Made by a program: the position numbers and the translations under genes
The notes under the pieces: model-generated
Databases searched by the model: none
What the model was told of the DNA's origin: nothing
The model's input: only the letters and a program-made list of their open reading frames with translations
NCBI GenBank assembly: GCA_029262835.1
Contig: JAJCYQ010000081.1
Span: 1 to 36,632 of the forward strand
Reading direction: 5' to 3'
Origin: Bacteroidota bacterium
Lineage (GTDB): Bacteria; Bacteroidota; Rhodothermia; Rhodothermales; UBA10348
DNA: 36,632 bases
Shown here: positions 2,803 to 18,573 of the stretch, one piece after another
How the letters are laid out: every line of letters starts with the position of its first letter
Position numbering within the stretch: position 1 is the stretch's first letter

Positions 2803-3536
2803 GGGGACGCTACCAGGCTGTCGTAGTGGTCGCGCAGCTTCTGCACGTCCTCCCAGGTGGGTCGCTTCCAGTTCGGATTGCGCAGGAGCGCCGCCGGATG
2901 GTAGGTGACCATGACGGGAATGCCATGGAAATCATGGAAGCGCCCGCGCAGATCGGCAAGTGAGGACTCGACGCCGAGCAGCGACGTTCCCGATGTGCGA
3001 CCGACGCACAGAATCAGTTTTGGCCGGATGAGCGCCATCTGCTTGAGCAGGATGGGCATGTGGGCCGCGACTTCGTCTGCATGCGGCTTGCGATTCTCCG
3101 GGGGGCGGGACTTCAGGATATTCGCGATGTAGACGTCCTCGCGATGGAAAGAAATGGCCTCCAGGATTTTGGTCAAAAGCTTTCCGGCGCGTCCCACGAA
3201 CGGCTCTCCCTGCGCGTCCTCATCGGCTCCGGGTGCCTCTCCGATTACCATCAGATCGGCCGCTGGATTACCCGTTCCAAACACCGGGTTGATCCGCGCC
3301 GAATCGAGTGGAATGAGGACGGTGTCGGCCACCCACGCTTCGAGTTCAGCGAGCGTGCCCAGCTGCGCCATGGCATCGTAAGGTGGTGTGTTCGGAATCC
3401 GGGATTCGATCATGGACAAAGGGGCACGTGGGGCTACAGGGGGCGACTTGTCATCAAGGGTAATGGGAAAAAAACGCCCGTACGCCTCCAGGTGCCACGC
3501 CAGTGCGTGTTTCAGGCGGCGTAATTCATGGTTCAT
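2799..3536 (-). CDS. Family-4-like uracil-DNA glycosylase lacking the iron-sulfur cysteines
   Basis: From the ATG at 3536 the protein has 245 residues. Family landmarks are clear: the GEAPG motif (99-103), GEPFVGRAGKLL (110-121), LKSRPPENR (141-149) and YHPAALLRNP (212-221). These mark the uracil-DNA glycosylases that remove uracil from deaminated DNA in base-excision repair. Canonical family-4 enzymes hold a [4Fe-4S] cluster with four cysteines (CxxC near the N-terminus, KCRPP, and a later AC). Here those places read T72, I75, S143 and H159, so no cluster is expected. About 70 residues precede the conserved core. An upstream in-frame TTG at 3623 would add 29 residues that do not look protein-like, so I prefer the ATG. 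The gene overlaps dnaB by 4 bases. A phage-SPO1-type polymerase-associated glycosylase relative is the main alternative. Confidence 0.88.
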   Translation of the reverse strand: MNHELRRLKHALAWHLEAYGRFFPITLDDKSPPVAPRAPLSMIESRIPNTPPYDAMAQLGTLAELEAWVADTVLIPLDSARINPVFGTGNPAADLMVIGEAPGADEDAQGEPFVGRAGKLLTKILEAISFHREDVYIANILKSRPPENRKPHADEVAAHMPILLKQMALIRPKLILCVGRTSGTSLLGVESSLADLRGRFHDFHGIPVMVTYHPAALLRNPNWKRPTWEDVQKLRDHYDSLVASP

Positions 3537-3627
3537 GGCGTCAGGGTCTGAGCCGGGAAAATAAGGGATCCCGGGTCCCAGTGTATGACTCCGTGGGCGC
3601 CCGAACGCGTTCTGCACGCACAATTTA

Positions 3628-4845
3628 TCAACACTCGAGCAGCGTATGGTGAATAAGGGCCGCTGCTACTTCGGCCTTGGGCAGGACCGGGAGGTTCACA
3701 GTAGACCCATCGCGGCCAAGAAGCGTAACCTTGTTCGTTCCCGCGCCGAAGCCGGCTCCCTCGTCGCCGAGCACATTGAGCACGATCCAGTCCAGGTTCT
3801 TGCGGTCCAGCTTACCGCGGGCGTTTTCCGGGCCGTCGTCCGTCTCCAGCGCAAACCCGATGAGTTGCTGCTGCGCCGTGCGGCGCGCCCCCAGGTCGGC
3901 CAGGATGTCAACCGTGGGGGTGAGTTCGAGCGTGAGCGGCGCCCCATCCTTCTTGATTTTACTGGTAGATGCGCGGGCCGGGGCATAGTCGGCGACGGCG
4001 GCCACCATGACGATGACGTCGTCCTCATGGCGTGCGATCACCGCCTCGTGCATGTCGGCTGTCGACACGACGTCCACGCGGCGTGCGACACCAGGCGGCG
4101 TTGCGAGCGCTACAGGTCCGGCAATTAGCGTGACCTCGGCGCCAAGACGGGCGGCCGTTTCGGCGATGGCAAAACCCATCGTGCCCGACGAGTTGTTGGA
4201 AATGAACCGGACGGGATCGATCGCTTCGCGCGTGGGCCCGGCCGTGACGGTGATCGTTTTGCCAGCCAGTGGACCTGTTCGCTTTGGCGCGGCGCTATCG
4301 AGAACGCGCACCGTCGCATCTACTATCTCCCTCGGCTCAGGCAGGCGTCCGTCGCCGATCAGGCCACTTGCCAGCTCGCCGTGGGCGGCCTCCATGACGG
4401 TGTCGCCTCGCTCGCGCAGCGTCTCCATGTTGGCCTTCGTCGCGGCATGAAGGTACATGTCGTGGTCCATGGCCGGGCAGACGAGCAGGGGACAGCGACG
4501 TGAGAGGGCCACGGCGGTCAGCATGGAATCGCACGCACCATCAACCAGTTTGGACATTGTCTGCGCCGTCGCCGGCGCAATGACCATGATGTCGGCCCAC
4601 AGGCCGAGTCCAACGTGGCGGGTCCAGCTGCCCTCTTCGTTGGGCGGAAAAATCTCGGTATGGACCTCTTCTTCGCTGAGCGTTCCAAGCGTGAGCGGCG
4701 TCACGAACCGGTGGGCGCTCTTGGTCATGACCACGCGTACGCGGGCGCCGGCCTTCTTGTAGAGGCGAACAAGCTCGGCCGCTTTATAGGCGGCAATGCC
4801 GCCGCTGACGCCGAGCACGATATGTTTTCCCTGCAGCGATGTCAT
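3628..4845 (-). CDS. coaBC: Bifunctional phosphopantothenoylcysteine decarboxylase / phosphopantothenate-cysteine ligase
   Basis: 405 residues, full length for the fused CoaBC enzyme that makes 4'-phosphopantetheine in coenzyme A synthesis. The flavoprotein CoaC half covers about 1-185: it has GVSGGIAAYKAAEL (12-25), the catalytic His at 77 (TRHVGL), IAPATAQTMSKL (89-100) and the PAMDHDM substrate-binding stretch (124-130). The CoaB ligase half starts near 190 with ITVTAGPTREAIDPVRFISN, followed by SSGTMG and KxKxD-type motifs. The clamp motif reads GELASGLIGDGRLPEP; the cysteine of the ACG form in E. coli is Ser160 here. I believe ASG is common in Bacteroidota homologues. The gene overlaps gmk by 4 bases, and the rpoZ gene often found between them is absent. 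Confidence 0.96.
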   Translation of the reverse strand: MTSLQGKHIVLGVSGGIAAYKAAELVRLYKKAGARVRVVMTKSAHRFVTPLTLGTLSEEEVHTEIFPPNEEGSWTRHVGLGLWADIMVIAPATAQTMSKLVDGACDSMLTAVALSRRCPLLVCPAMDHDMYLHAATKANMETLRERGDTVMEAAHGELASGLIGDGRLPEPREIVDATVRVLDSAAPKRTGPLAGKTITVTAGPTREAIDPVRFISNNSSGTMGFAIAETAARLGAEVTLIAGPVALATPPGVARRVDVVSTADMHEAVIARHEDDVIVMVAAVADYAPARASTSKIKKDGAPLTLELTPTVDILADLGARRTAQQQLIGFALETDDGPENARGKLDRKNLDWIVLNVLGDEGAGFGAGTNKVTLLGRDGSTVNLPVLPKAEVAAALIHHTLLEC

Positions 4846-5426
4846 GCCACGGCCTCGCAGGCTGCCATGTGGTGCTCGACGAGACGGGTGAATGCGGCGA
4901 GTGCCTTGTCCAGGTCGTCGTTGACAATCGTCACGTCGAACCGATCGGCAAGTGAGAGTTCGTACTGTGCCCGGGTCATTCGCACAGCAAGGGTCTCGTC
5001 CGTCTCCGTCCCGCGCTCGCGCAGGCGTTTCTTCAGGGTCTCAAGCGATGGTGGGGCAATGAAAACGGTGAGCACCGCGTCGCCATACCGCTCCTTTACG
5101 CTGAGGGCGCCGTGCACGTCGATGTCGAGAAGAACCGGCTTTTCGGCGCTCGATGCCTCGACTTCGCTGCACGGCGTACCGTAGAAGCAGCCCGGATAGA
5201 CCTCCTCGTATTCAAGCAGGCGGCCCTGTTCAATGGCCTCGTGGAACGCCGTCCTGTCCATGAAATGGTAGTCGTATCCATCGCGCTCATGGGAGCGTGC
5301 GGGCCGTGTGGTGGCCGACACCGAGAACGTGACCTGCGGCAGGCGCTCCATCAGGCCCCTGGCCAGGGTGGTTTTTCCGGCTCCGGAGGGAGACGTAACA
5401 ACGACAACGCACGGCTTACTCGACAT
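4842..5426 (-). CDS. gmk: Guanylate kinase
   Basis: 194 residues, standard for the enzyme that phosphorylates GMP to GDP. The P-loop SPSGAGKTT lies at 12-20. The GMP-binding region follows: SATTRPARSHERDGYDYHF, then EYEEVYPGCFYGTP. LDIDVHGALSVKE forms the Walker B-like strand, and RLRERGTETDE is the lid. It overlaps yicC upstream by 11 bases and coaBC downstream by 4 bases, so the four genes yicC-gmk-coaBC-udg are very likely one transcript. The yicC-gmk pairing is widely conserved in bacteria. Confidence 0.97.
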   Translation of the reverse strand: MSSKPCVVVVTSPSGAGKTTLARGLMERLPQVTFSVSATTRPARSHERDGYDYHFMDRTAFHEAIEQGRLLEYEEVYPGCFYGTPCSEVEASSAEKPVLLDIDVHGALSVKERYGDAVLTVFIAPPSLETLKKRLRERGTETDETLAVRMTRAQYELSLADRFDVTIVNDDLDKALAAFTRLVEHHMAACEAVA

Positions 5427-6300
5427 TTTCGACCTGCTCGCGGATTTTTTCGAGTTCTTCCTTCATGCCCACGACAAGATGGGCCATCTCGGCATCGTTC
5501 GACTTGGACCCGATCGTATTGACCTCGCGGTTCATTTCCTGGGTCAGGAAATTCAGCTTTCGGCCTACAGGCTCGTTGGAGGCGAGGGCTTCGTTGAAGA
5601 GGTGTACGTGCGAGCGAAGCCGCACGCATTCCTCACGGACATCCAGTTTGTCGGCGAGCAGCGCCATTTCGACTTCGAGGCGGCCACGGTCCACGCGCTC
5701 ATCGGCGAGCAGCTCGGCGAGGCGCTCACGAAGGCGCTCGTGGGACGCGGTGACGCGCTCAGGCCCATGAGTCTCAATCCGCGCAAGGCGCTCTTCAAGG
5801 CCACCGATACGCGCCGAGAGCTCGGCGTGCAGGGCTTCACCTTCCTGCCGGCGCATGTGCTGAAGGGAGACGAGCGCGTCCTCGAGTGCCGCCCGGGTCG
5901 CCACCCAGGCACCTTCGTCCTTTGTGGGGTCAGATGCACTCGTTTCAAGTACTTCGGAAAAGCGGAGTATGTCCGGCAATGAAATACTCGCCTCGGGGAG
6001 GCGGGCCGCCAGGCAGACCTCCTCCAGTACACGCCGTGCCTGGGCCGCAGCCTCCTGGTTCACACGAACCGGGAGCGCGTCTGCCACAGCAGCCTCCAGC
6101 TGCACCTGGACACTTATCCGCCCGCGGGGAATGACCTGCTTGATGAGCCGCTGCATCTCCGTTTCGCGGCTTGCCAGAAGGGACGGCAGGCGCGTGGAGA
6201 CTTCGCAGAAGCGGCTGTTCACGGAGCGAACCTCGACAGTAGCTGTCTGGCCCTCAATGGTGGCTTCTGCTCGGCCAAAGCCGGTCATGCTCGCGATCAT
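5416..6300 (-). CDS. yicC: YicC family endoribonuclease-like protein
   Basis: 294 residues. The N-terminal YicC domain begins MIASMTGFGRAEA, the diagnostic start of the family, and continues with VEVRSVNSRFCEVSTRLPSL. The C-terminal DUF1732 part carries KLNFLTQEMNREVNTIGSKS and ends in a helix with KEELEKIREQVENVE. E. coli YicC has been reported as an endoribonuclease that takes part in small-RNA turnover; activity here is inferred from family membership. It is the first gene of the compact minus-strand run towards dnaB. The 72 bases between it and the FG-GAP gene hold no promoter or terminator that I can recognise, so weak read-through from upstream is possible. Confidence 0.94.
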   Translation of the reverse strand: MIASMTGFGRAEATIEGQTATVEVRSVNSRFCEVSTRLPSLLASRETEMQRLIKQVIPRGRISVQVQLEAAVADALPVRVNQEAAAQARRVLEEVCLAARLPEASISLPDILRFSEVLETSASDPTKDEGAWVATRAALEDALVSLQHMRRQEGEALHAELSARIGGLEERLARIETHGPERVTASHERLRERLAELLADERVDRGRLEVEMALLADKLDVREECVRLRSHVHLFNEALASNEPVGRKLNFLTQEMNREVNTIGSKSNDAEMAHLVVGMKEELEKIREQVENVE

Positions 6301-6372
6301 GAATGGGTCCGGTGATGTGGTTAGATCGCGTGTACGCCGAACGTGCCCTGCCGATCCACTCGCCCGGTCTCG

Positions 6373-9348
6373 TCACGGGATGCGCTCCGGGAACTGCCGG
6401 TTCATCAGGAAGCGGGTTACGGGCTGGCCGTCAGTTCCGGTTCCGATGAGTACGATATCTGCGTCCCCGTCACCATTGTAGTCGCCTACAGCGAACCGGC
6501 CAAAGAGTGATGCAGACACGTTCAGTTCTGGAAGGAGACTGCTGCCGTCATTGCGGTAGAGCGTGGCGAAGCGTTCCCCGAATACGGACGCGGCGCCGAG
6601 TTGGAACAGGTCTTCGTCTCCGTCTCCATCATAGTCGGTCCATGCACTCTGCCCATGTATAATGCCGGCAAGCGGCGCGGCAACCCGCTCAAAGCCCCCG
6701 TTTCCCGTGTTCCGGAAAACGAGCGATACGCCCTCCATGAGTTGTGGTGTATAGGTGCCGCCCGAGAGAGAGAGGTCTGCGAGGCCATCTCCGTCCAGGT
6801 CGCCCCAGGCCACGGCGCCGGCCACCAGATGCGGCATGTCCGGGACGACAATGGGCACGAACGTGCCGCCCTCATTGCGGAAAATGCCGGAGAGCGGCTG
6901 TCCATTGCCAGCGTCGCCTGCGAGCGCCACGTCCAGGTCGCCGTCGCCATCTATATCGGTCCAGGCGGCCTCGCCTCCCATGACGCCGGGTAGCAGGTCG
7001 TCGTGTGCGCGGAAGGATCCATTCTCCTGCAGCGCGACGATGGTAACGGGCTCAAACGGGGCAGTGGCCTGACGCGTGCCCGTAATGAGCAGGTCTATAT
7101 CGCCGTCATTGTCCATGTCGCCCGCCGTCATGCTTCCATTCCAGAGCGCCGGAACGCCAATGATGGGGCGCTCGGTCATGGTCAAAACCGTATTCGTGAA
7201 CGCCCGTACGACCGGCTGTCCCGAGTCTGGGTCGCGACCCGTGATGACAAGATCCGCGAGCCCATTACCATTCAGGTCGCCCCAGGCTGTCATGGTGCCC
7301 AGCAGGTCAGGAAATACGAAAGATGTCTCCAGGTACGTTTTGAACGTAAAGAAAACGTCTTCGAGACCTGGAATGGGGAGTGTTACATCTTCGGCGCGGA
7401 AAAGGGTCGATGCAAAGTCCGAGCCGGTTGCCCCACTTACGAAGAGGTCAAGATCTCCATCGTTGTCCACGTCAATGAGGTCGACCGTGCCGTCGTTGAC
7501 ATTGGGCAGGTCAAAGTTGAAAAATATCGGCTGGGCGAGGGTGGATTGCGGCGTATCGGGCTGTCCGAAAGCGAACGTGGATTCATTAAGGGCGCCACGG
7601 ATGTCAAAACCGTCGGTGGCCAGGACGGTCCATGTATAGAGCCGGTTGGGGACGAGAGCGCTCGTACCGAGTTCGAAAAAAGGTTCTTCGATATCTGGAA
7701 TGGACAGGTCCACACCCGAACCGGAAACCACAAGTGTGTATCGAACCTCTTCGCCGTCGGGATCCACCGCGGCCTCCCACGAAAACGGGATGGAGTCGTC
7801 TGTTGCCGGAATGAAGCCACCCTGTGCGGGGGCGGTGATGGTAAAGGTGTCGGGTGCTCCGTTCTGACCTTCGCCTTCGACGAACTGCAGTGTCTGATTC
7901 GGGCTGAATGGACCCTCATGGGTTTCCGTACTCCCGCTGGGCCAGGTAATCACGATACGCTCAACTGTCGTGGTCGCCGGACCCAGGCCGAAGTGGGCGG
8001 TCAATTCGTCGCTCTGGCTGGCGAAGCCGTCTCCTGCCGCTATGCGCCGGAAAAGAGACCCGTTCTGAGTTACAACTTCAATCCGGGCACCCACGGCAAA
8101 ACGGTTGGCGATATCCGACCGGGTCCGGACTTTGATCCAGCTGTTCTGTCCGGCTTGTCCAAGGAAAACACGGGTGTTGCCGGGGGCGGGCAGAATGAGG
8201 TCGACCCATCCATCATTGTTCACGTCACCTGAAACAACGGCGGGGCCCTCTGGGATGTCGCCGGCAAACGCGGCACCAGCTACGTCCTCGAACGTGCCGT
8301 CACCCTGGTTTCGGAACAAACGTGCCGGGTTTCCCTCGCGCGTTACGAAGAGGTCTTGCCATCCGTCGTTGTCGAAATCTGCCGCAACAGCGCGAAGACT
8401 GTTTTCGCGGTTTGTTGGTGAAATGCCGCTTGCCGATGTGATATTCTGGAACAAAAGGCTGTTGAAATTACCCTGGTCACTGACTCTGTACAGCTCGTTT
8501 TCGCCAAATGCGAATCCAAAGCGTTCGTTGGCAATGAAAAGTTCGTCGCGCCCGTCATTGTCAACATCAATCCAGGTGGATGAGTTGGACGACATGGTGC
8601 GCATGCTGTTGGTACTGTTCTGGACATAGCGATCACGCGGGGCATCGTACCGCAGGAAAATATTTGGGCGTCCATTTTCACCGCATCGGGTCAGGAAAAT
8701 GTCGAGGTCCCCATCATTGTCGGCATCGCGGATCGATGCACCACAGACGGGCCCGGGAGCATCGGCCTCGGCTGGTCCTGTCAGGTTGGCAAACGTGCCG
8801 TCAGGCCGGCCCGAAAAGAGGCCGTTTGTTCCGGTCGATGTGGCTACGAAGAGGTCGATCAGGTCGCTTCCAGCGAAATTCCCGACAAAGCCAGCCAGAT
8901 TGCCAGCCGGAATAGACAGGTTGCTGGAGAAGGGCGCGATCCGGAACGAGCTTCCAGACCTGTTCAGCCAGGTCCGGCTTCCGGATCCAGTCGAGGGGAT
9001 GTGTAGATCGAGCAGTCCATCCCGGTTGATGTCTCCAAAGACGCCGCCCTGCGGTCCGTCCCCCTCCGCATCAATGCCCGAGACGCCGAGGATATTTTCG
9101 AATGCACCGTCGGCGCGTTGCCTGTACAGGCGCCCCGGGTGGTAGAGGTCAAGCAGTCCGTCGGCATTGAAGTCGGCAAGGGCGGCGCCTGTAAACGGAA
9201 GTGTGGCGTCGGGCTGCTGTAGAATAAGCTCGGAGGCATCTGTAAACTGCTGTCCGTTGGTGGTAGCAGGCCACATCACGGCTCCAGCCAGAAGGAGAAT
9301 GAACAGACGGAAAGGTGATGGGCGATGGAAAACAGGGTGGCAGGACAT
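6373..9348 (-). CDS. Large secreted FG-GAP/VCBS-repeat protein with ASPIC/UnbV domain
   Basis: 991 residues from the ATG at 9348, which is followed by a signal-peptide-like stretch (FRLFILLLAGAVMWPATTNGQ, about residues 13-33). About thirteen calcium-binding-loop repeats of the form D-x-D-x-D-G-x-x-D-L are visible, such as DADNDGDLDIF, DFDNDGWQDLF and DIDGDGDLDVA. They form two blocks, about 45-400 and 600-985. Between them sit an ASPIC/UnbV domain (RIVITWPSGSTETHEGPF, near 465) and a fibronectin-III-like segment (about 500-595). The repeats suggest a beta-propeller-type extracellular or surface protein that binds calcium; its ligand is unknown. The protein stops right after the last repeat (NRQFPERIP), with no type IX secretion sorting domain or anchor visible. 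The frame stays open upstream to 9756, but that part is encoded by repeats and lies before the signal peptide. Confidence 0.9.
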   Translation of the reverse strand: MSCHPVFHRPSPFRLFILLLAGAVMWPATTNGQQFTDASELILQQPDATLPFTGAALADFNADGLLDLYHPGRLYRQRADGAFENILGVSGIDAEGDGPQGGVFGDINRDGLLDLHIPSTGSGSRTWLNRSGSSFRIAPFSSNLSIPAGNLAGFVGNFAGSDLIDLFVATSTGTNGLFSGRPDGTFANLTGPAEADAPGPVCGASIRDADNDGDLDIFLTRCGENGRPNIFLRYDAPRDRYVQNSTNSMRTMSSNSSTWIDVDNDGRDELFIANERFGFAFGENELYRVSDQGNFNSLLFQNITSASGISPTNRENSLRAVAADFDNDGWQDLFVTREGNPARLFRNQGDGTFEDVAGAAFAGDIPEGPAVVSGDVNNDGWVDLILPAPGNTRVFLGQAGQNSWIKVRTRSDIANRFAVGARIEVVTQNGSLFRRIAAGDGFASQSDELTAHFGLGPATTTVERIVITWPSGSTETHEGPFSPNQTLQFVEGEGQNGAPDTFTITAPAQGGFIPATDDSIPFSWEAAVDPDGEEVRYTLVVSGSGVDLSIPDIEEPFFELGTSALVPNRLYTWTVLATDGFDIRGALNESTFAFGQPDTPQSTLAQPIFFNFDLPNVNDGTVDLIDVDNDGDLDLFVSGATGSDFASTLFRAEDVTLPIPGLEDVFFTFKTYLETSFVFPDLLGTMTAWGDLNGNGLADLVITGRDPDSGQPVVRAFTNTVLTMTERPIIGVPALWNGSMTAGDMDNDGDIDLLITGTRQATAPFEPVTIVALQENGSFRAHDDLLPGVMGGEAAWTDIDGDGDLDVALAGDAGNGQPLSGIFRNEGGTFVPIVVPDMPHLVAGAVAWGDLDGDGLADLSLSGGTYTPQLMEGVSLVFRNTGNGGFERVAAPLAGIIHGQSAWTDYDGDGDEDLFQLGAASVFGERFATLYRNDGSSLLPELNVSASLFGRFAVGDYNGDGDADIVLIGTGTDGQPVTRFLMNRQFPERIP

Positions 9349-9396
9349 GGAGTGATAAAATTGGGCACCTGAATGGATGAACCAGCAATGTAGAGT

Positions 9397-9408
9397 TTGC
9401 GATCGCAA
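9397..9408. promoter_or_regulatory. Perfect 12-bp palindrome upstream of the FG-GAP gene
   Basis: TTGCGATCGCAA, with further near-symmetry at the flanks, lies 49 bases upstream of the FG-GAP gene start. It could be an operator for that gene. It contains the octamer GCGATCGC, which is a common palindrome in some genomes, so it may also be chance or a methylation site. Confidence 0.3.
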
Positions 9409-9435
9409 CACGGAAATGCAAAAAGGAGTCCCCAT

Positions 9436-9786
9436 GCTCGTGCGGGGCACGGCTCGCGTGGGCACGGCTCGCGGAGGGGGCGCTTGGCTAAGCGCTGGCG
9501 CTTCTGCAGGAGGAATTACGTCGCGCTCGCCTGTCGGCGCGCGCTCCGTTAGCGATTGAGACGGGCTTTTGCACGTCTTACTCGCTCGTGCGGGGCACGG
9601 CTCGCGTGGACGCAGGTCGCGGGAGGGTGGAGATTCCGCGGGAGGAATTACGTCGCGCTCGCCTGTCGGCGCGCGCTCCGTTAGCCCTTGGGAGGAGGGT
9701 CGCAGGAAAAAAAGCCCTGGCCGCTCGCTGCGCTCGTGGCCTTGGGGCTTTTGCACGTCTTACTCGCTCGTGCGGGGCACGGCTCG
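9436..9786. repeat. Alternating A/B direct repeats between FG-GAP gene and tRNA-Ser
   Basis: This is the main content of the gene-free stretch 9349-9835. Repeat A (42 bases) is identical at 9563-9604 and 9745-9786; a 26-base portion recurs at 9436-9461. Repeat B (45 bases) is identical at 9509-9553 and 9641-9685. The order is A(partial)-B-A-B-A. Repeat A contains GGGCTTTTGCACG, which matches the edge of the tRNA-Ser terminator, so the repeats may have grown from that terminator. No transposase or coding frame of interest is present. Confidence 0.8.
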
Positions 9787-9836
9787 TATACGTGCAAAAG
9801 CCCCGCACGCTGGCGCGTGCAGGGCTTTTTTCCTGC
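9702..9836. repeat. Inverted duplication of terminator-like sequence beside tRNA-Ser
   Basis: Two nested inverted repeats occur here. The outer arms are GCAGGA-A7-GCCCTG at 9702-9720 and its near-exact complement at 9819-9836. The inner arms GGGGCTTTTGCACG (9744-9757) and CGTGCAAAAGCCCC (9791-9804) are a perfect 14-base pair separated by 33 bases. Each half also contains its own terminator-like hairpin, so the block looks like a terminator copied in inverted orientation. It overlaps the A repeats. Confidence 0.65.
9796..9831 (-). terminator. Bidirectional intrinsic terminator after tRNA-Ser
   Basis: Arms of 13 bases at 9798-9810 and 9815-9827 pair with one mismatch around a 4-base loop. Read on the minus strand, just 3' of tRNA-Ser, the stem is followed by TTTT. 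On the plus strand it is followed by six T residues. It would end the frr/tRNA-Ser transcript and isolate the FG-GAP gene. Confidence 0.75.
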
Positions 9837-9925
9837 GGAGAGGGAGGGATTCGAACCCTCGATACGGGGTCTACCCGCATACTCGCTTTCCAGGCGAGCC
9901 CCTTCAGCCACTCGGGCACCTCTCC
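9836..9925 (-). tRNA. tRNA-Ser (anticodon GGA)
   Basis: A complete class II cloverleaf reads on the minus strand. The 7-bp acceptor is GGAGAGG/CCTCTCC. The anticodon arm is CTCGC-CTGGAAA-GCGAG with anticodon GGA. A long variable arm pairs around TAGA, as serine tRNAs require. The T arm is GAGGG-TTCGAAT-CCCTC. The discriminator base is G at 9836, and CCA is not encoded. It lies 23 bases downstream of frr on the same strand and may be cotranscribed with it. It decodes UCC/UCU. Confidence 0.95.
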
Positions 9926-9932
9926 TTTTGAG

Positions 9933-9946
9933 GCGGCATGTGCCGC
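9933..9946 (-). other. Small hairpin between frr and tRNA-Ser
   Basis: GCGGCA and TGCCGC pair directly after the frr stop codon. No T tract follows on the minus strand, so it is unlikely to be a complete terminator. It may mark an RNA processing point between the frr message and tRNA-Ser, or slow 3' decay. Confidence 0.35.
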
Positions 9947-9948
9947 GC

Positions 9949-10518
9949 TCAGACTTCCATGATTTCTGCTTCTTTGTGGTCCATCAGGCGATCCACTTTT
10001 TCAATATGCTTGTCGGTGAGCTCCTGCAGCCGCTCCTCGGCGTCATACTGCATGTCTTCGGGCAGGTTTTCGTCGGCCTGCGCCTTCTTGATCTCGTCCT
10101 TGGCATGCCGACGCACGTTCCGGATGGCGATCTTGGCATCTTCGGCCCGCGTTTTTGCCGCCTTGGCGAGTTCCTTGCGACGATCTTCCGAGAGGGGAGG
10201 CACAGGTAGCCGGATGACCGAGCCGTCGTTCGATGGGTTGAGACCGAGATTGGACGACTGGATGGCCTTTTCAATTTCCTGCAGCGCCGAGCGGTCCCAT
10301 GGCTGCACCATGAGCAGGTCAGACTGGGGCGCGCTTACGCTGGCCATCTGGTTGAGTGGCGTAATGGATCCATAATAATCCACACGGATGTTCTCCAACA
10401 TGGCTGGCGAGGCCCTTCCGGCACGAATGGATTTGAACTCGCCCAGAAGATGTTCAATGCTGGCATCCATGTGTTCGGATGCATCGTCCAGAATCAATTT
10501 CAGTGAGTCGGCTATCAT
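9949..10518 (-). CDS. frr: Ribosome recycling factor
   Basis: 189 residues from the ATG at 10518, the usual length. The protein splits post-termination ribosomes together with EF-G. The family signature is clear: [28 protein letters not shown], with the conserved RAGRAS motif, then [16 protein letters not shown] and [14 protein letters not shown]. The C-terminal helix ends [21 protein letters not shown]. The start overlaps the pyrH stop by 4 bases (ATGA). A GGGGAG stretch stands about 7 bases upstream and could act as a ribosome-binding site. The frame is open further upstream inside pyrH, but the conserved protein begins at this ATG. Confidence 0.97.
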
Positions 10519-11249
10519 GATGCTTCTCCCCAGTAGACAAGGGTACCGACATCTTCGCCTCGTGCGACGCGGCTGAGATGTCCTTCCTTGTTCATGTTGA
10601 ACACAATGAGCGGCATTTCCGACTCGTGGCACAGCGTGAAGGCCGTCATGTCCATGACCCGAAGGTTTTTTCGAATGACGTCCTCACCGTGGATACGGTC
10701 GAACCGCTTGGCATCCGGATCTTTTTCCGGATCGTCCGTGAATATACCATCTACACGCGTTCCCTTCAGGATCACATCGGCATCGATCTCAAGGGAGCGC
10801 AGCGCGGCCGCCGTATCGGTCGTGAAATAGGGGTTTCCAGTGCCAGCACCGAAAATCACGACACGTCCTTTCTCCAGATGCCGGATGGCCCGGCGCGGAA
10901 TGAAAGGCTCAGCGATTTCATTCATGTTCAGCGCCGACTGCAACCGGGTCTGGAGCCCTTCCTGTTCAAGGGCGTCCTGCAGCGCCATGGCATTGATCAT
11001 GGTCGCCAGCATACCCATGTAGTCGGCGTGGGAGCGGGTCATGCCTTCCGATGCATTCTTCATGCCCCGAAAAATATTCCCGCCTCCGATGACCAGAGCG
11101 ATCTCGGTGCCGAGCTCACGGACGGCACGGATTTCGCGTGCATACCGGCATATCACCTCGTTGTCAATACCGTAGTCGGCGCTACCCAGGAGCGCCTCGC
11201 CACTGAGTTTGAGCAGTATGCGGCGGTATCGGGGAGGTGTCTGGTCCAT
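10515..11249 (-). CDS. pyrH: UMP kinase
   Basis: 244 residues, matching the hexameric bacterial UMP kinase that makes UDP for pyrimidine nucleotide synthesis. Features seen: [14 protein letters not shown] at the N-terminus, [10 protein letters not shown] (phosphate-binding loop), the [17 protein letters not shown] helix, and [16 protein letters not shown]. The adenine-binding end reads [14 protein letters not shown] and MDMTAFTLC. The gene sits 4 bases downstream of tsf and overlaps frr. The order rpsB-tsf-pyrH-frr is conserved across bacteria. Confidence 0.98.
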
Positions 11250-11253
11250 GGGT

Positions 11254-12084
11254 CTACTCGCCGAGCGCGAACCGGGTAAAACCGTGCAACGTGGCGCCCT
11301 TCGACGAGAGCATCTGCTCGACCGTCTGCGAGGAGTCCTTCACGAAGGGCTGCTCAAGCACCACGTGGTCCTTGTAGTAGCGCTCCACCTTGCCCTGGGC
11401 AATCCGATCCACGATGTTTTCGGGCTTGCCCTCGAGGAGCGCCGCTTCACGCGCAATCGTCATCTCGCGCTCGACCACGTCGGCCGGTACCTCGTCCCTG
11501 TGGGCGGCAACCGGGTTCATGGCGGCCACCTGCATGGCCACGTCGCGCCCGGCTGTCTCGAGGTCGCCGTCACCGGATACGTGTACGAGAACCCCGAGGC
11601 GCGAACCCGGGTGGATGTAGGAAATCAGTTCGCCATCCTCGACAGAGACCACGGCCACCTGACGGACATCGATTTTTTCACCAATCTTGCCTGTCATATC
11701 CGTGAGGGCCGTCTCGACCGTTCGCCCGTCGGGAAGCGTGAGCGCCACAAACGCATCGCGGTCGCTCACCTTGCTTGGCAGCGTGAGGTCGGCCAGTTCG
11801 TCGGCAAACGCCTGGAAGCCCTCGTTGCGGGCCACGAAGTCTGTTTCACAGTTGACTTCGACGAGGCTCGCCGTTTTCCGGTCGTCTGTGGACCGGGTCA
11901 GGACAAGACCCTCCTTTGCATCACGGTCAGCACGCTTCTCGGCTACCTTCTGACCCTTCTTGCGCAGCAGGTCAATGGCGACGTCAAAATCGCCGTCTGC
12001 CTCCTGGAGGGCCTTCTTGCAATCCATCATGCCGACGCCAGTGACGTCGCGCAACTTTTTCACATCCGAGGCAGAAATAGCCAT
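11254..12084 (-). CDS. tsf: Elongation factor Ts
   Basis: 276 residues. EF-Ts exchanges GDP for GTP on EF-Tu. The N-terminal UBA-like domain contains [19 protein letters not shown], the most conserved family motif, and the helical [10 protein letters not shown]... [16 protein letters not shown] segment starts the core. It lies 24 bases downstream of rpsB with no terminator between them. No Shine-Dalgarno sequence is seen before the ATG, in line with most starts in this window. Confidence 0.98.
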
Positions 12085-12108
12085 GGGACCAGTCGGGTTA
12101 AATGGTGA

Positions 12109-12972
12109 TTATTTTTCTTCTTCGCTGTCGTCCGCGCCCGCAGACAGGACATCGGCCGACGCTTCGGTTTTCTTGCGACGCTTGCGCTTGGTTTCCTTCT
12201 TGGGCTCTGCCGTGTCCTGGGCTTTCTTCTCTTTCTCGGCCCGGGCTTCTGCCTCGGCCACTGAACGCTGCTTCTCTCCCTCCTGGATGGCCTGGCTGAT
12301 CACAGACGCAATCAGTTCAATCGACTTGACGGCATCGTCGTTGGCCGGAATCGGGTAGTCCACGACGTCCGGATCACAGTTGGAGTCCACGATGGCAATG
12401 ATCGGGATACCCAATTTCTGGGCTTCCTTGACGGCGATGTGTTCGCGGTTGATATCGACAATGAAGATCGCGCCGGGAAGGCGCGACATGTCCTTGATAC
12501 CTGAGAGCACGGTCTGCAGCTTCTCCCGCTCGCGCGCCCGCATGAGGCGCTCCTTCTTCTTGAGCTGTTCGAGCGTTCCATCCTCTTCCATCTTGACCAG
12601 CTCTTCCATGCGGCGGATGGACTTGCGGATGGTCTGGAAGTTCGTAAGCGTTCCACCGAGCCAGCGTTCCACGACGTACGGCGAGCCACATGCTTCGGCC
12701 TGTTCGCGGATTACCGCGCGGCCCTGCTTCTTCGTTCCAGCGAAGAGGACATTCTTACCACGCTTGGCAAATCGGGCCACGGCATCGGCCGCTTCATCGA
12801 GATAGGCCTGCGTGTGGTTGATGTTGATGATGTGGATTCCGTTGCGCTCCATGAATATGTGGTCGCGCATTTTCGGATTCCAGCGGCTCGTAAGGTGGCC
12901 GAAGTGGACGCCTGCCTTGAGCAGGTCTTCTATGGACGCCCGGTGGGTCGTCACGTCTTTGTTTTCACTCAT
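12109..12972 (-). CDS. rpsB: 30S ribosomal protein S2
   Basis: 287 residues, with an S2 core and an extended charged tail. The core shows LLKAGVHFGHLTSRWNPKM, FAGTKKQGRAVIREQA, ERWLGGTLTNFQTIRKSI and PIIAIVDSNCDPDVVDYPIPAND. After about residue 237 a tail rich in Lys, Arg, Glu and Ala follows (KKETKRKRRKKTE, ending DDSEEEK), which most S2 proteins lack or have in short form. The gene starts a transcript with tsf, pyrH and frr, since an intrinsic terminator stands between it and rpsI. I could not pin down its promoter. Confidence 0.98.
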   Translation of the reverse strand: MSENKDVTTHRASIEDLLKAGVHFGHLTSRWNPKMRDHIFMERNGIHIININHTQAYLDEAADAVARFAKRGKNVLFAGTKKQGRAVIREQAEACGSPYVVERWLGGTLTNFQTIRKSIRRMEELVKMEEDGTLEQLKKKERLMRAREREKLQTVLSGIKDMSRLPGAIFIVDINREHIAVKEAQKLGIPIIAIVDSNCDPDVVDYPIPANDDAVKSIELIASVISQAIQEGEKQRSVAEAEARAEKEKKAQDTAEPKKETKRKRRKKTEASADVLSAGADDSEEEK

Positions 12973-13064
12973 TGTAGTCGGGTTTATTGACCTCTACATC
13001 CTTCCATTGCCGTCCGAAACCGCATGTACGGCCACCCCGGACGACATCGGGATGTATGTGTTGT

Positions 13065-13092
13065 AAAAAAGGTATCCGAACATGCCGGATAC
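13065..13092 (-). terminator. Intrinsic terminator of the rplM-rpsI operon
   Basis: On the minus strand, 10 bases past the rpsI stop codon, GTATCCG and CGGATAC form a 7-bp stem with a 7-base loop. One C then six T residues follow (13070-13065). It separates rplM-rpsI from rpsB-tsf-pyrH-frr, which therefore needs its own promoter in 12973-13064. Confidence 0.8.
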
Positions 13093-13102
13093 GCGGATGA
13101 TA

Positions 13103-13504
13103 TCAACGCTTCGAGAACTGGAAGCGTTTGCGGGCCTTGGGCTGTCCGTATTTTTTCCGCTCGACCATGCGGGGGTCACGCGTCAGGAAGCCGGCCTGGC
13201 GAAGAGGGCTGCGCAGCTCTTCGTTGAAATCAACGAGCGCCCGGGAAATTCCGAGGCGGATGGCTTCTGCCTGGCCGGAAATTCCGCCACCCTTGGCGTT
13301 GACGACGACATCGAACGAGCCGGTCGTCTCCGTCACATCGAACGGAGAGGTGACGCTCTTCTGGCGCCATGCAGTGGGAAAGTAGGTGTCGTAGGCTTTC
13401 TTGTTGACTACGATCTTACCGCTGCCACCGGGCCGGAGGTAGACCCGTGCGACGGCATTTTTACGCCGACCGACGGCGGTGAACTGCTGGAGTGCTGTTG
13501 CCAT
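13103..13504 (-). CDS. rpsI: 30S ribosomal protein S9
   Basis: 133 residues. Conserved blocks are present: AVGRRKNAVARVYLRPG at the N-terminus, GGGISGQAEAIRLGISRAL in the middle, and the basic C-terminal tail DPRMVERKKYGQPKARKRFQFSKR whose last residues reach the P-site tRNA. It lies 14 bases downstream of rplM, the usual partner gene, and is followed by a terminator. Confidence 0.98.
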   Translation of the reverse strand: MATALQQFTAVGRRKNAVARVYLRPGGSGKIVVNKKAYDTYFPTAWRQKSVTSPFDVTETTGSFDVVVNAKGGGISGQAEAIRLGISRALVDFNEELRSPLRQAGFLTRDPRMVERKKYGQPKARKRFQFSKR

Positions 13505-13518
13505 GATATCGAGTTGTA

Positions 13519-13962
13519 TTACAGAGCCAGGGTTTGCGGTTGCTGGGCATCGTGTGGATGCTCGGCCCCGGCGTACACGTGGAGCTTCTTGATCATTTTG
13601 CGCCCGAGGCTGTTCTTCGGAAGCATGCCTTTGATGGCATTCTCCAGAATGAACGTGGGGCGCATTGCGCGCACCTCCTTGGGTGTGCGGCTCCTGAGGC
13701 CACCCGGATAGCGGGAGTGGCGATAGTATTTCTTGTCAAGCTCCTTGGCACCCGTGAAGCGGACCTTTTCGGCGTTGACCACGATGACGTGATCCCCGGT
13801 ATCCACATGAGGGGTGAAAGAAGCTTTGTGCTTACCACGCAGAATGGCGGCGACCTCGCTGGCGAGGCGACCGACCACCATGTTCTCTGCATCCACTACA
13901 TGCCATGAGCGGACGACTTCTGCCGGCTTGGCACTGACGGTCTTGAAACTGTTGACGTCCAT
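13519..13962 (-). CDS. rplM: 50S ribosomal protein L13
   Basis: 147 residues from the ATG at 13962. The start [16 protein letters not shown] aligns with the normal beginning of L13. Conserved parts follow: [68 protein letters not shown]. The frame is open upstream with ATGs at 13977 and 14088, but those add non-conserved residues. A sigma-70-like promoter lies about 75 bases upstream, so this gene starts the rplM-rpsI operon. Confidence 0.96.
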
Positions 13963-14038
13963 GGGACAACCTGTCATTGATAACCTTGTGACGCGATCCG
14001 TGAACAGTTCAGACTGTTTCAAAAAATCGCAGACTGCC

Positions 14039-14067
14039 AAAATAGGAAACATCTGGTCCTCGGTCAA
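14039..14067 (-). promoter_or_regulatory. Sigma-70-like promoter for rplM-rpsI
   Basis: On the minus strand TTGACC (14067-14062) and TATTTT (14044-14039) are separated by exactly 17 bases. The predicted start of transcription is near 14032, giving a leader of about 70 bases before rplM. Such a leader could hold an L13-type autoregulatory structure, but I did not recognise a known one. Confidence 0.5.
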
Positions 14068-14218
14068 TCGTCTCCGCAGAGGGTTCATCCAGTTTGCACA
14101 CGACCGGGACCATTTGTCCGCGTGGATTCACGGAAACCGAAAGAATATGTTCGGCCGCGTCCGTCGTATTCGGCCAATCTTTGAATTTGGGTAGTGTTTG
14201 CGCGCCTTGGGGCCGTGG

Positions 14219-14239
14219 TTTTCGGCGCCCCGCCGAAAA
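14219..14239. other. Perfect hairpin in the rplM / sigma-factor intergenic region
   Basis: TTTTCGGC (14219-14226) and GCCGAAAA (14232-14239) pair around a 5-base loop. The T-rich part is inside the stem, and no T tract follows on either strand, so it is not a standard terminator. The divergent region 13963-14394 otherwise holds the rplM promoter, a TTTGCGT direct repeat at 14271 and 14296, and no gene I can support. Confidence 0.4.
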
Positions 14240-14394
14240 AAGTCACCGATGCGAGGTTAGGTTTTTTCAGTTTGCGTGTCAGTGTAGGGACGCTTTTTGC
14301 GTTTATGTACATACGAGCCCTCCAGACGCTTCACCTCACCTGCCAGCGTGATGGACCACCATCAAACGAAAAAAGACAGACCCGCACGCATCCC

Positions 14395-15033
14395 ATGTCG
14401 TATCGCACTGAACTGCGCTCCCTCGATACGCTGGCAGCCCACTTGCCCTTCTCCCTTGATGAATCGGAGAGGGTCAATGAGACCTATGCCCGCTATGCTG
14501 CCCAGAACCGCCTTCCTGATGCCCAGATGGTGGACCTCTGGACGTATTGTTATATCCGCCGCTACTTCCTTATCAAGTTCATTCGCTCCGGAGGATTCCG
14601 GAGCTCGGAGCTCGAGCAGGTCGTCGAGAAAACCTATCGCAAGGTCGACGAGGCCCGGGGTCGACTGCAGCACAACGACCGGTACGCCCAATGGGTGTCT
14701 GTCGTGTGTCGGAACGCCTTCTACAACTTCGTGTCGAGGAGGCTGCGTCTGACGCCGCTCGAAGACATCGTCGAGATCAAGGCGGCGGCGCCGGATGTCG
14801 AACTGGATGTGGATTCGGGGGCACTGTTTCTGGCGCTTACGGCCGCTATTGAGGAACTGCCCCCCTTCCTGCAGCAAACCGCGCGTATGCGCTTCGTTGA
14901 AAACCTCTCCTACGAGGAAATAGGCCGCATTCTTGGGAAAAGGGCACCAACCATCCGGTCGTACATCCACAAGATCTGCCAGCGCTTCCGCCGAAACAAG
15001 GAGCTCTCGATCTGGGCCGAGAGGTATCTGTGA
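14395..15033 (+). CDS. ECF-type RNA polymerase sigma factor
   Basis: 212 residues from the ATG at 14395. Residues about 45-125 resemble sigma-70 region 2 (YIRRYFLIKFIRSG, then a helix ending VVCRNAFYNFVSRRLR). Residues about 148-202 are region 4, a helix-turn-helix: IEELPPFLQQTARMRFVENL, then SYEEIGRILGKRAPTIRSYIHK. It would direct polymerase to a small regulon. The 40-residue N-terminal extension is longer than usual. It is transcribed against its neighbours rplM and dnaN. A gene for a single-pass membrane protein follows 99 bases later and is the likely anti-sigma partner. The longer open frame back to 14194 has no conserved content. Confidence 0.85.
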   Translation: MSYRTELRSLDTLAAHLPFSLDESERVNETYARYAAQNRLPDAQMVDLWTYCYIRRYFLIKFIRSGGFRSSELEQVVEKTYRKVDEARGRLQHNDRYAQWVSVVCRNAFYNFVSRRLRLTPLEDIVEIKAAAPDVELDVDSGALFLALTAAIEELPPFLQQTARMRFVENLSYEEIGRILGKRAPTIRSYIHKICQRFRRNKELSIWAERYL

Positions 15034-15132
15034 GCGAAACACACCACACCCATTTTTTTTCACCGCGCAGGTTATGGATGACGCTTTCTTGTGTCTTACC
15101 CATAGACTACCTGAGCTAACTGCATACATCCT

Positions 15133-15879
15133 ATGAACCGTTGGTCAAGGTCTGACAAAGCGGGCAGGCTCTCACGCCTGTTGACCGATGCACGGTTTCT
15201 GGCCGAACCCGATTGCGACGAAGAGGCGGCCCCATTCTGGCATGTATCCATGCCACAGGGCAGTACCACAGCGCTCGATGCGCTTCGAGAGCGCTTTCAT
15301 AACCGGCTCCGCCGAAAGCCGGAGCTGCGCGACGAGTGGCTGCGTCTGAATGAGCGCCGTTCCGAGCTTGAGCCCGAGGAAGGCGCACAGGCGCACTTCG
15401 AATGCGTCACCGGCCACCGGGTCGCCGATTTTTCCTGGAGGCGGGACGCGGCGCGGCAACCGCTGCCGAAGAGGCGCCTGCGCCGGGTGAACGGCATGGC
15501 CGTCGCGGCGTGTCTCGTCGCGGCGCTGTCGGTGTCGGCCGTACTGCGCCTCACGCCTGGGCCGCCCGACCCGTTCAATACCGAAACGGCGAGCCTGTCC
15601 GGCTACCGCTGGGACGAAGTGGGTGAGCGCACGCGCCGCTACCGCGCAACCGGCGAGGAGTCCAGGGGCGGCGCCGTTTCCTATGCCGACGCCATCGCTG
15701 AGGCGCGCCGTGCGCGCACGGTCTATCTGGGCTTTGTGGAGCGCTATGACCGGGAGGGCCTCATGCGGGCCCGCAACCTGCTCATCGAGGCGCGGCGAGT
15801 CGATACCGGATATCCGGAGCCTGTTCAAGTCGAGCAGATGGCCCAGGTTCTTGACTCGCTGATCAGGCGTACGTATTGA
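15133..15879 (+). CDS. Single-pass membrane protein, candidate anti-sigma factor
   Basis: 248 residues, no family recognised. Residues 1-115 are charged and probably cytoplasmic. One transmembrane segment lies at about 119-138 (NGMAVAACLVAALSVSAVLR), preceded by the positive stretch KRRLRR. The C-terminal 105 residues would be outside and are rich in Arg, Ala and Glu, possibly helical. The topology and the place directly after a sigma factor gene suggest an anti-sigma factor, although I see no zinc-binding HxxxCxxC motif of the ZAS type. Its 3' end overlaps the convergent dnaN gene by 17 bases. The function is inferred from context only. Confidence 0.7.
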   Translation: MNRWSRSDKAGRLSRLLTDARFLAEPDCDEEAAPFWHVSMPQGSTTALDALRERFHNRLRRKPELRDEWLRLNERRSELEPEEGAQAHFECVTGHRVADFSWRRDAARQPLPKRRLRRVNGMAVAACLVAALSVSAVLRLTPGPPDPFNTETASLSGYRWDEVGERTRRYRATGEESRGGAVSYADAIAEARRARTVYLGFVERYDREGLMRARNLLIEARRVDTGYPEPVQVEQMAQVLDSLIRRTY

Positions 15880-16984
15880 GCATGACGGGCATGATGAGCA
15901 TCATCATCACTTCGCCTTCTTTCTGCTCACTCGGCGTGACGACACCCGCCCGGTTGGGCGAGCTGAATTCGAAGAGGACCTCCTCGGAATCCACGTTCTG
16001 CAGCACTTCGGTGAGGTACTGGGCATTGAATCCGATGACGAGCGGCTCTCCTTCGTAGTCGCAGAGCACGTCCTCATGGGCAGAGCTCGAGCGCTCCAGG
16101 TCTTCAGCTGAGATACTTACCCGGCCGTTTTCCACGGCAAGTCGGATCTGGTTGGTCATGGACGAGGAGTAGAGGGCGACGCGCTTGGCAGCTGCCAGCA
16201 TGGCATCGCGCTCCACGGTCATCCGCTTGTCATTGTCGACGGGGATGACGGCCTGGTAATTGGGATAGGGCTCATCTATAAGGCGCGTCAGCACGCGTGA
16301 GGCGCCAAAATCAAATCCCGCGTAGCCACTGTCCACGATCAGCCCACAGGCGCCGTCGGTGGCTACCTTGGCGGCCAGGACCATGGCCTTTTCCGGGACA
16401 ATGAATTCAATGTCCTCGCTCGACGTGAGCTCGCTGAGGGTAAGCTTGACAAGGCTGCGCCCGTCGGTCGCGACAGCGCGCCCGGAAGAGCCTGTGATCT
16501 GGAAGAAAATGCCCATCATGGCCGGCCGCAGGGCATCCTTGCTGACCGCGAAATTGGTTTTCTGTATGGCCCGCCTCAGTAGCTCCCCGGTCGTCTCAAT
16601 GCGTGTAGTCTCGGAAAGCTCAGGCAGGGCCGGGTAGTCGGCGCCGTCGTAGCCCACCATTTTGTACTCGCCCCGATCGGTCGTGAGGATCACATTGTAC
16701 TCGTCGTCGGCGCTGAACTCGACCGGCAGGTCGGGAAGCGCCCTCAGCGTATCGATGAGCCGGCGCGCCGGGACCGCTACACGGCTCGATCCGGCCGCCA
16801 CAACATCGACGGAGACCCGCTGCAGGATGGATATTTCAAGATCTGTCGCGCTCAGGCGCAGCCCACCGGCGTCCTCTTCAAACAGGATACACTCCAGAAT
16901 AGGAAGCGCATGTTTGGTTGGAACAGCACCATTGACCGTTTGGAGGGCTTTGAGCAGGTCGGAACTGGAGGCAGCAAATTTCAT
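15863..16984 (-). CDS. dnaN: DNA polymerase III beta subunit (sliding clamp)
   Basis: 373 residues from the ATG at 16984. The start MKFAASSSDLLKALQTVNGAV is typical of DnaN. Three clamp domains are visible from conserved stretches: ALPILECILFEED in the first, RRAIQKTNFAVSKDALRPAMMGI in the second, and VISADDLERSS-like sequence plus IGFNAQYLTEVLQ in the third. The C-terminus MLIMPVMLNTYA matches the usual MPMR-type end in a diverged form. It follows dnaA by 95 bases on the same strand, the classic origin-side order. The upstream frame to 17029 is not conserved. Confidence 0.97.
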   Translation of the reverse strand: MKFAASSSDLLKALQTVNGAVPTKHALPILECILFEEDAGGLRLSATDLEISILQRVSVDVVAAGSSRVAVPARRLIDTLRALPDLPVEFSADDEYNVILTTDRGEYKMVGYDGADYPALPELSETTRIETTGELLRRAIQKTNFAVSKDALRPAMMGIFFQITGSSGRAVATDGRSLVKLTLSELTSSEDIEFIVPEKAMVLAAKVATDGACGLIVDSGYAGFDFGASRVLTRLIDEPYPNYQAVIPVDNDKRMTVERDAMLAAAKRVALYSSSMTNQIRLAVENGRVSISAEDLERSSSAHEDVLCDYEGEPLVIGFNAQYLTEVLQNVDSEEVLFEFSSPNRAGVVTPSEQKEGEVMMMLIMPVMLNTYA

Positions 16985-17079
16985 GGGGCAATCCGCATGT
17001 GTGAGATGACACGGGAAGTTAACGCTCACCCATGGCCAAGTCTACCCCTGGGAGCGTGTCGAGCACGCCTGGAGTCGTC

Positions 17080-18573
17080 CTACCGTGAGCGCAGCTCGAT
17101 GGCGTGGGCAATTTCTTCGACGACCTGCCGAAACGCACTGTCGGTTTCCACCTGGTTCTTGATGCTCTGCCGCGCATGGATAACCGTTGAGTGGTCCCGG
17201 CCCCCAAAATGGAGGCCAATCGTCTTGAGAGAGTGGTGGGTCAGTTCTTTCGCAAAATACATGGCCACCTGACGCGCCTGGACGACCTCGCGCTTGCGCG
17301 TCTTGGCGCGGACGAGATCCTCGCTCACATTGAAGTACTGGCATACAACGCGTTGGATCTGGTCAATGGTGACCGGAGCACGCGTATCGCTTACAAGGTC
17401 CCGAAGCACGTCGCGGGCCAGTTCCAGGTCCACGTCGCGGTTGTAGAGCGTGCCGTGCGCGAGCAGTCGGATGAGTGCGCCTTCCAGTTCGCGGATGTTC
17501 GAGGTGATGTTGTGCGCTACGAACTCGAGGATATCCTCACTGATGTCGATTCCGTCTTCTGAGGCCTTGCGGTGCAGGATGGCCATCCGCGTTTCGAACT
17601 CGGGCGACTGTACGTCGGCCGACAGGCCCCAGTGGAAGCGCGAGAGCAGCCGCTCTTCCACGCCTTTGATATCCCTGGGCGCCCTATCGGCCGAGAGTAC
17701 GATCTGTTTTCCGCTCTGGTGCAGGGCGTTGAAGATGTGGAAGAACTCTTCCTGGGTTTTTTCCTTACCCGAGAAGAACTGCACATCGTCGATGATAAGC
17801 AGATCTATCTGTCGGTACATGAGCGAGAAGTCACTCACCTTGTTATGCTGGATGGCCTGCACGAATTCGTTGGTGAACTGTTCTGACGACACGTAGAGAA
17901 CGGTGTCGCTGGGAGCATTGGCCTGCACGTAATTACCAACGGCCTGGATCAGGTGGGTCTTTCCGAGCCCGACCCCGCCGTAGAGCAGGAACGGATTGAA
18001 GCTGGTTCCGCCAGGGTTCTGGGCAATGGCCAGCGCCGCGCTGCGCGCCAACCGGTTGCAATCTCCTTCTATGAATCGGTCGAACGTGTAATTCGGGTTC
18101 AGCCGGCTGTCCACATGCACCTTGCGGATACCTGGAATCACGAACGGATTGGATATTCCGTGCTCGGACGACGCGGGGGGTGAGGCCGTGTGCCGCGGCG
18201 CCTCGGAGGCCCGCTCAGCCCAAAGGGCGCGACCGGGCGGCTCGTTGGCGGGCCGTCTGGCTGGTAGATGCATGCTCGTTCCCGTATTTCCCGCCTCCAC
18301 GTCCTCCTTCTCGATCGTCACGTCATAGAAGAGCTTCCCCGTCGGACCGAGCACGCGCGTCACCGTCGATCGCAAGAGTGAAAAGTAGTGCTCTTCCAGC
18401 CACTCGAAATAAAACCGGCTTGGGAGCCGCACCGTGAGCGAGAGTTCGTCGTCTTTCTCTTCAAGCCGCGCCGCACGCAGGGGCTCGAACCACGTACGGT
18501 AGCTCTGGACACTGACATTGTCGCGTATCACATCGAGGCACTCCTTCCAGGCTTTGTCGGCTGTCAGCTCCAT
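17080..18573 (-). CDS. dnaA: Chromosomal replication initiator DnaA
   Basis: 497 residues. Domain I (1-85) starts with WKECLDVIRDNVSVQSYRTWFEP. A variable Pro/Ala/Arg-rich linker (about 90-150) is domain II. The AAA+ domain begins at LNPNYTFDRFIEGDCN. Walker A is GGVGLGKT (199-206), and Walker B is LLIIDDVQFF with D262-D263. RLLSRFHWGL holds the arginine-finger region. Domain IV ends with the DnaA-box-binding signature GGRDHSTVIHA (457-467). DnaA-ATP opens oriC and loads DnaB. The start ATG is only 6 bases from a good -10 element, so the transcript may be leaderless. Confidence 0.98.
   Translation of the reverse strand: MELTADKAWKECLDVIRDNVSVQSYRTWFEPLRAARLEEKDDELSLTVRLPSRFYFEWLEEHYFSLLRSTVTRVLGPTGKLFYDVTIEKEDVEAGNTGTSMHLPARRPANEPPGRALWAERASEAPRHTASPPASSEHGISNPFVIPGIRKVHVDSRLNPNYTFDRFIEGDCNRLARSAALAIAQNPGGTSFNPFLLYGGVGLGKTHLIQAVGNYVQANAPSDTVLYVSSEQFTNEFVQAIQHNKVSDFSLMYRQIDLLIIDDVQFFSGKEKTQEEFFHIFNALHQSGKQIVLSADRAPRDIKGVEERLLSRFHWGLSADVQSPEFETRMAILHRKASEDGIDISEDILEFVAHNITSNIRELEGALIRLLAHGTLYNRDVDLELARDVLRDLVSDTRAPVTIDQIQRVVCQYFNVSEDLVRAKTRKREVVQARQVAMYFAKELTHHSLKTIGLHFGGRDHSTVIHARQSIKNQVETDSAFRQVVEEIAHAIELRSR

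Follow-up and report, generated by a model that had tools for sequence, protein, structure and literature searches.

The window analysed here, a 36,632 nt stretch of DNA from a member of the Rhodothermales, carries two adjacent genes that encode an ECF sigma factor and a single-pass membrane protein. The probability that these represent a vertically inherited pair of the Rhodothermales, consisting of an ECF sigma factor and a membrane anti-sigma factor, is put at about three in four. Judged from its sequence, the partner most likely serves as an anti-sigma factor in the membrane that lacks zinc and has a TPR domain on the periplasmic side. The pair looks like an undescribed but recognizable kind of envelope-sensing switch, situated near dnaN in most Rhodothermales examined. 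It is unnamed in the titles and abstract openings of the literature on ECF and anti-sigma factors, Rhodothermales, Salinibacter and Rhodothermus; an ECF group number for the sigma factor may exist in the tables of the 2021 re-classification. The portion of a Roseithermus paper that was covered (PMC7409140) makes no mention of the pair.

The sigma factor gene, identified by Pfam and NCBIfam matches and by its orthologues, is on the plus strand at 14395-15033 (ATG at 14395, stop at 15033) and encodes 212 amino acids. It is followed on the same strand, at 15133-15879 (ATG at 15133, stop at 15879), by the gene for the membrane protein, a probable anti-sigma factor of 248 amino acids recognized through its homologues. 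This second open reading frame shares 17 bp with the 3′ end of the convergent dnaN (15863-17029, minus strand). Both genes are oriented against their flanks, rplM-rpsI and dnaN-dnaA, and every other recognizable gene from 139 to 18573 is on the minus strand (dnaB, coaBC, gmk, frr, pyrH, tsf, rpsB, rpsI, rplM, dnaN, dnaA and others, most of these names being assigned from translations). A preliminary description of this DNA was right that the two frames lie between rplM-rpsI and dnaN and that they are the only plus-strand genes of the left arm. It also called the pair inserted, which does not hold: a pair between rplM and dnaN is the normal layout of the Rhodothermales, kept across 64 genomes, which goes far past what chance would produce. 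As the same arrangement is found order-wide, a local insertion or mobile element is ruled out. A search of the window for an origin of replication revealed neither a cluster of DnaA boxes nor a clear turn in GC skew. Elsewhere in the window, beside a tRNA-Ser, a large FG-GAP/ASPIC-UnbV repeat protein is encoded on the minus strand at 6373-9756.

Sigma orthologues were detected in 92 of 114 Rhodothermales genomes; none of the 16 genomes listed for one group, f15, has a match, and neither have six others. Of 394 sampled genomes of the phylum, 38 carry the sigma factor; apart from G074 and G126, which belong to the same class and represent a single genus (group f16), all are Rhodothermales. A scan of 84,980 species, the sole source for phyla beyond the window's own, yielded 46 sigma loci, and the taxa named are Rhodothermales, Rhodothermia, Rhodothermaceae, Salinibacter, Salinivenus, Rhodothermus, Roseithermus and Bacteroidetes/Bacteroidota. 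The gene order was compared in 64 loci, one per genome; this count leaves aside L081, whose genome is already represented by another contig, and L082 (G006), a contig that starts just before the partner gene and in which no sigma factor was found. The sigma gene is opposite rplM in all 53 contigs that show both genes and opposite dnaN in all 46 that show both.

So constant an address could mean that the position itself matters, the pair regulating rplM-rpsI or dnaN-dnaA and thereby tying envelope state to ribosome and replication output. The place is kept in all loci having both flanks, and the gap that separates the sigma gene from rplM in the window is a region of divergent promoters. Such a role is nevertheless very improbable. 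About 3 kb or more separates rplM from the sigma gene in a number of genera within the window's family (L083, L089-L095, L097-L099), three f15 genomes lack the pair and have rplM adjoining dnaN, and the strong upstream element described below is found at the sigma gene only. The link between envelope and growth put forward in the preliminary description finds support in the conserved position only; in the three f15 genomes dnaN lies directly beside rplM, 83-103 bp apart by tblastn limits, with nothing in between. In these loci (L173, L174 and L175) dnaA-dnaN-rplM-rpsI-rpsB-tsf form one run, and their dnaN has a very long branch. Group f15 is likewise on a long branch in a DnaN tree in which many forks are open; it may have lost the pair or may have split off before the pair arrived. 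In the class outgroups f16 (two genomes), f17 (one) and f18 (six), rplM was not within the fetched flanks of dnaN. One of the loci with wide spacing, L092, displays two open reading frames at 2806-5340, of 239 and 576 amino acids, neither of which matches Pfam; the start of the first is signal-like, that of the second lipoprotein-like.

The sigma protein of the window has both regions expected of an ECF factor. It matches the NCBIfam sigma70-ECF model TIGR02937 over residues 59-199 with 55.4 bits (cut-off 42.9). Region 2, whose limits are approximate, comprises residues ∼44-117 (14524-14745) and holds a conserved WTYCYIRRYFLIKF block; region 4, residues ∼144-200 (14824-14994), matches Pfam Sigma70_r4_2 (PF08281) at 2e-8. 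The Pfam search gave no match in the window protein for region 2 by itself. Its 212 residues, with no region 3 family among the Pfam matches, conform to the ECF plan of ∼200 residues without region 3. When 47 orthologues are combined into a profile, it matches ECF factors of solved structure, among them E. coli RpoE (1or7_A) over residues 62-194 at 5.7e-13, with query residue 62 aligned to residue 38 of the chain. From this offset an extra N-terminal stretch of ∼24 residues is deduced (residues 1-24; 14395-14466), in agreement with the preliminary description. The stretch carries an LPF motif (14443-14451), with L17 in 98%, P18 in 100% and F19 in 98% of the 47 rows. On average, the commonest residue has a frequency of 0.54 in the extension, 0.57 in region 4 and 0.67 in region 2.1, which includes the block mentioned above. 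N-terminal extensions occur in other ECF factors, as parts of two papers report (PMC8103513, PMC8999054); the near-invariant LPF extension is an unusual feature of this pair. A single-sequence structure model of the sigma factor was of no use (pLDDT 50.9).

The membrane protein of the window has one hydrophobic span, residues 122-140 (15496-15552; hydropathy 2.16). The N terminus is predicted to lie inside because a basic stretch precedes the span. On the cytoplasmic side is a conserved juxtamembrane motif, HFECVTGH (residues 88-95; 15394-15417), which belongs to a module of helices termed H4-H7. The periplasmic part (15553-15876) consists of the first TPR-like helices, with YLGFVERYD at 15724-15750. 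An AlphaFold model of a full-length relative, L116, built on a 37-row alignment (mean pLDDT 83.9), displays N-terminal helices at residues 4-9, 16-28 and 30-51 and a second set of cytoplasmic helices at 59-70, 78-93, 95-114 and 117-125, the last over HFExLTGH. These are followed by the span (165-192) and by TPR-like helices (225-329). The HFExLTGH segment is the most conserved cytoplasmic piece, with F121 found in 97% of the 37 rows. The TPR part of the model matches TPR structures with Z ∼11-12 over ∼90 residues; the fold matches are dominated by TPR proteins, barely probe the N-terminal part and include no anti-sigma entry among those listed. PF14559 (TPR_19) is the most frequent Pfam match, in 23 of 42 partners at E up to 1 (best 3.8e-6), and for member 1 it falls below gathering cut-offs. 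A periplasmic TPR domain is a property of the partner family, of which the window copy keeps the first part only, with no Pfam match.

The window protein starts within helix 3 of its relatives and is without helices 1-2 and the last TPR repeat. The six codons from the upstream stop to its ATG offer no usual start. The short form is not an assembly error, since the proteins of two congeners, G001 and G003, align with it end to end and are likewise short (∼267 and 260 amino acids). Two parts of the partner are unusual: the TPR domain as presumed sensor, and the second cytoplasmic helical module with HFExLTGH, which is kept even in copies, that of the window among them, without the usual N-terminal helices.

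A profile built solely from 16 partners belonging to the window's family recovers the frame at the partner position in all 25 of the other loci at E 2.2e-5 or better, whereas no competitor among 1178 frames does better than E 0.18. The A3 profile, in which many of these proteins recur, detects a homologous membrane partner behind the sigma gene in 55 of the 64 loci; co-occurrence of both genes, named as a check in the preliminary description, is clearly positive. Five loci have no partner, and dnaN follows 18-182 bp after the sigma frame (L057, L075, L078, L190 and L279; sigma is broken in one). Another four were outside this judgement: two at contig ends (L080, L277) and two, of group f6, in which other genes follow the sigma gene. 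The partner of the L080 genome sits on another contig, L081. In f6, at L069:6864-10463, a frame of 165 amino acids and an SMC ATPase stand after the sigma gene on the same strand, in place of the usual partner and dnaN. A genome-wide search detected no partner in G039, G058, G400, G041 and three f15 genomes; the sigma factor is absent from the f15 genomes, broken in G058, divergent in G041, and intact in G039 and G400.

A series of losses is found in group f14. Partners of 138-147 amino acids without the periplasmic part, reduced to the helical cytoplasmic part and the span (L120 and L118, with duplicate records L053 and L280, respectively), are followed by loci with no partner (L057, L190, L279) and by a broken sigma frame with no partner (L075, in G058). 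This series would fit a pair that is decaying and merely carried along by its essential neighbours. As an account of the whole order, decay is very improbable: elsewhere the sigma factor is strongly constrained, with a mean column identity of 42% over 47 rows and invariant P18, Y51, P156 and R188.

In class I anti-sigma domains three helices bind sigma region 4 and a fourth binds region 2, according to PMC7406223. The optional zinc motif of this class, HxxxCxxC, does not occur in any row of two partner alignments (A2, 42 rows; A3, 37 rows), so its absence from the window protein, stated in the preliminary description, is general. The same description proposed a new type of anti-sigma factor from this absence. 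The anti-sigma reading is the best supported one, but the lack of zinc does not imply a new type, because the motif is missing in ∼44% of class I domains and in about half of the membrane-bound ones (PMC7406223). As to the three-helix bundle, the L116 model displays three N-terminal helices and the partner family has weak profile similarity to zf-HC2 domains, so the family may belong to class I; the window protein, which begins in helix 3, falls short of formal class I membership in helices 1-2.

The zf-HC2 comparison set 24 N-terminal segments (helices 1-3), picked by eye from the partners as having the motif, against 16 zf-HC2 anti-sigma rows from the same genomes. These rows came from 50 places (30 + 20), of which 17 were recognized; L213, an odd row, was left out, and L209 duplicates the protein of L229. 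With trimmed segments the probability was 45.2 and the score 21.2, compared with at most 17.8 in 200 column shuffles, 7.4 for the reversed profile and at most 12.4 for sigma slices. The match is weak in sub-sets of the zf-HC2 rows (probability 14.8 and 1.8) and absent with untrimmed 130-residue segments (1.8). Ten of the 42 Rhodothermales partners weakly match the NCBIfam anti-sigma factor model NF052375 (best 2.9e-4). The distance matrices of sigma and partner over 31 loci correlate with r 0.29, and with r 0.14 after removal of dnaN and dnaA, a value equalled or exceeded in 289 of 5000 permutations. These values are below the 0.5-0.6 given by non-interacting controls in PMC7406223 and, if anything, speak against an interaction; saturation of the fast-evolving partner may lie behind the low correlation.

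The two f16 genomes have homologues of the partner (E 6e-33 and 4e-32 with the partner profile), located at L274:5254-5997 and L275:5521-6267 beside a tatC-like gene. The pair is unlinked there, with the partner on another contig in G074 and ∼310 kb from the sigma gene in G126. That f16 retains both proteins indicates that the two are kept together even when unlinked, in one lineage. By eye, the f16 partners have helices 1-3 and the TPR part, and the HFExLTGH module is absent; LPF is absent from the f16 sigma factor. These partners match NF052375 over the N-terminus and membrane span at 4.1e-7 and 8.6e-6, below the model cut-off of 100 bits. Such matches argue against a role of the membrane protein as an effector or envelope scaffold under sigma control, a TPR protein like E. 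coli YfgM and not an inhibitor. Single-span TPR envelope chaperone partners do exist, PpiD-YfgM is among the fold matches, and inside the order the resemblance to anti-sigma models is weak. The helical cytoplasmic part is, however, kept throughout and, with the span, is the sole remnant in the f14 copies, and an effector role is considered unlikely. On the strength of sequence comparison, the most probable mode of action of the pair is that of a membrane anti-sigma system.

Upstream of the sigma gene is a promoter-like element, present in the window as a degenerate copy at 14255-14285 (plus strand) and strong in relatives. In nine loci belonging to the window's family (L083, L089-L093, L095, L097, L098) it reads CGTTCGRTT-N11-CGTTTCTRT with small variations; three congeners have GCGTTC...GTCGTG with the same spacing (CGTTC-N15-CGT), and the window copy is degraded. 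Once six near-copies are set aside from 49 upstream regions, CGTTC-N15-CGT is found in 11 of the remaining 43; in 20 shuffles no pair of this size exceeds 6. The strong element, at up to one mismatch, occurs at nine places in nine of 16 genomes, and every one of these places precedes the sigma gene. The element is read as a probable autoregulated promoter; a site for a bound regulator or an RNA element are alternatives. No regulon was found with it in the 16 genomes: the two places with two mismatches gave no clear result, and matches with three mismatches are near control level in several genomes. A second motif, CACGC-N15/16-GTTT, is located upstream of the sigma gene in L050, L056, L058, L067, L070, L085 and others; in six sources CACGC-N15-GTTT matched no Rfam family at the gathering threshold, and the motif may be part of the promoter or leader of the divergent rplM.

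In the proposed mechanism, the cytoplasmic helices of the partner would at rest hold the sigma factor at the membrane, away from RNA polymerase, and the periplasmic TPR domain would bind an envelope protein or peptide. A change in the TPR ligand would free the sigma factor, through proteolysis or conformational change, and the free factor would transcribe a limited number of genes, with its own operon, reached via the conserved upstream element, probably among them. More tentatively, H4-H7 and HFExLTGH might hold the sigma factor by its LPF extension and by the WTYC..RRYFL.KF block of region 2.1, an anti-sigma binding mode of its own. If so, this mode would let the N-terminal sigma-4-binding helices be lost, as in the window's genus and f14, or kept alone, as in f16. 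LPF and H4-H7 are missing together in f16, and LPF is lost in the partnerless G041; the partnerless f14 genomes keep LPF.

Only 6% of Bacteroidetes ECF factors have a class I anti-sigma factor nearby (PMC7406223), and for this reason their control is largely open. An order-wide pair with a fixed address, a periplasmic TPR domain and a possible second docking module represents a testable case in the culturable Rhodothermus, Salinibacter and Roseithermus, and natural truncations of the partner separate its modules. Several known systems are similar in part. E. coli YfgM is an inner-membrane protein with a single span and a periplasmic TPR domain, as in the partner; it is not known to be part of a sigma gene pair. 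The ECF42 group (PMC8103513, PMC8999054) also has an ECF sigma factor regulated through TPR repeats, which there are fused to the cytoplasmic sigma factor; here they belong to a membrane protein distinct from the sigma factor and lie in its periplasmic part. Class I anti-sigma factors such as RseA, RskA, RsiW and ChrR (PMC7406223) are alike in having the gene beside that of an ECF sigma factor, N-terminal helices and often one span with a C-terminal sensor, many being zinc-less. Unlike them, the partner has a second cytoplasmic module, H4-H7 with HFExLTGH, together with a periplasmic TPR domain, and helices 1-2 are lost in the window's genus and in f14.
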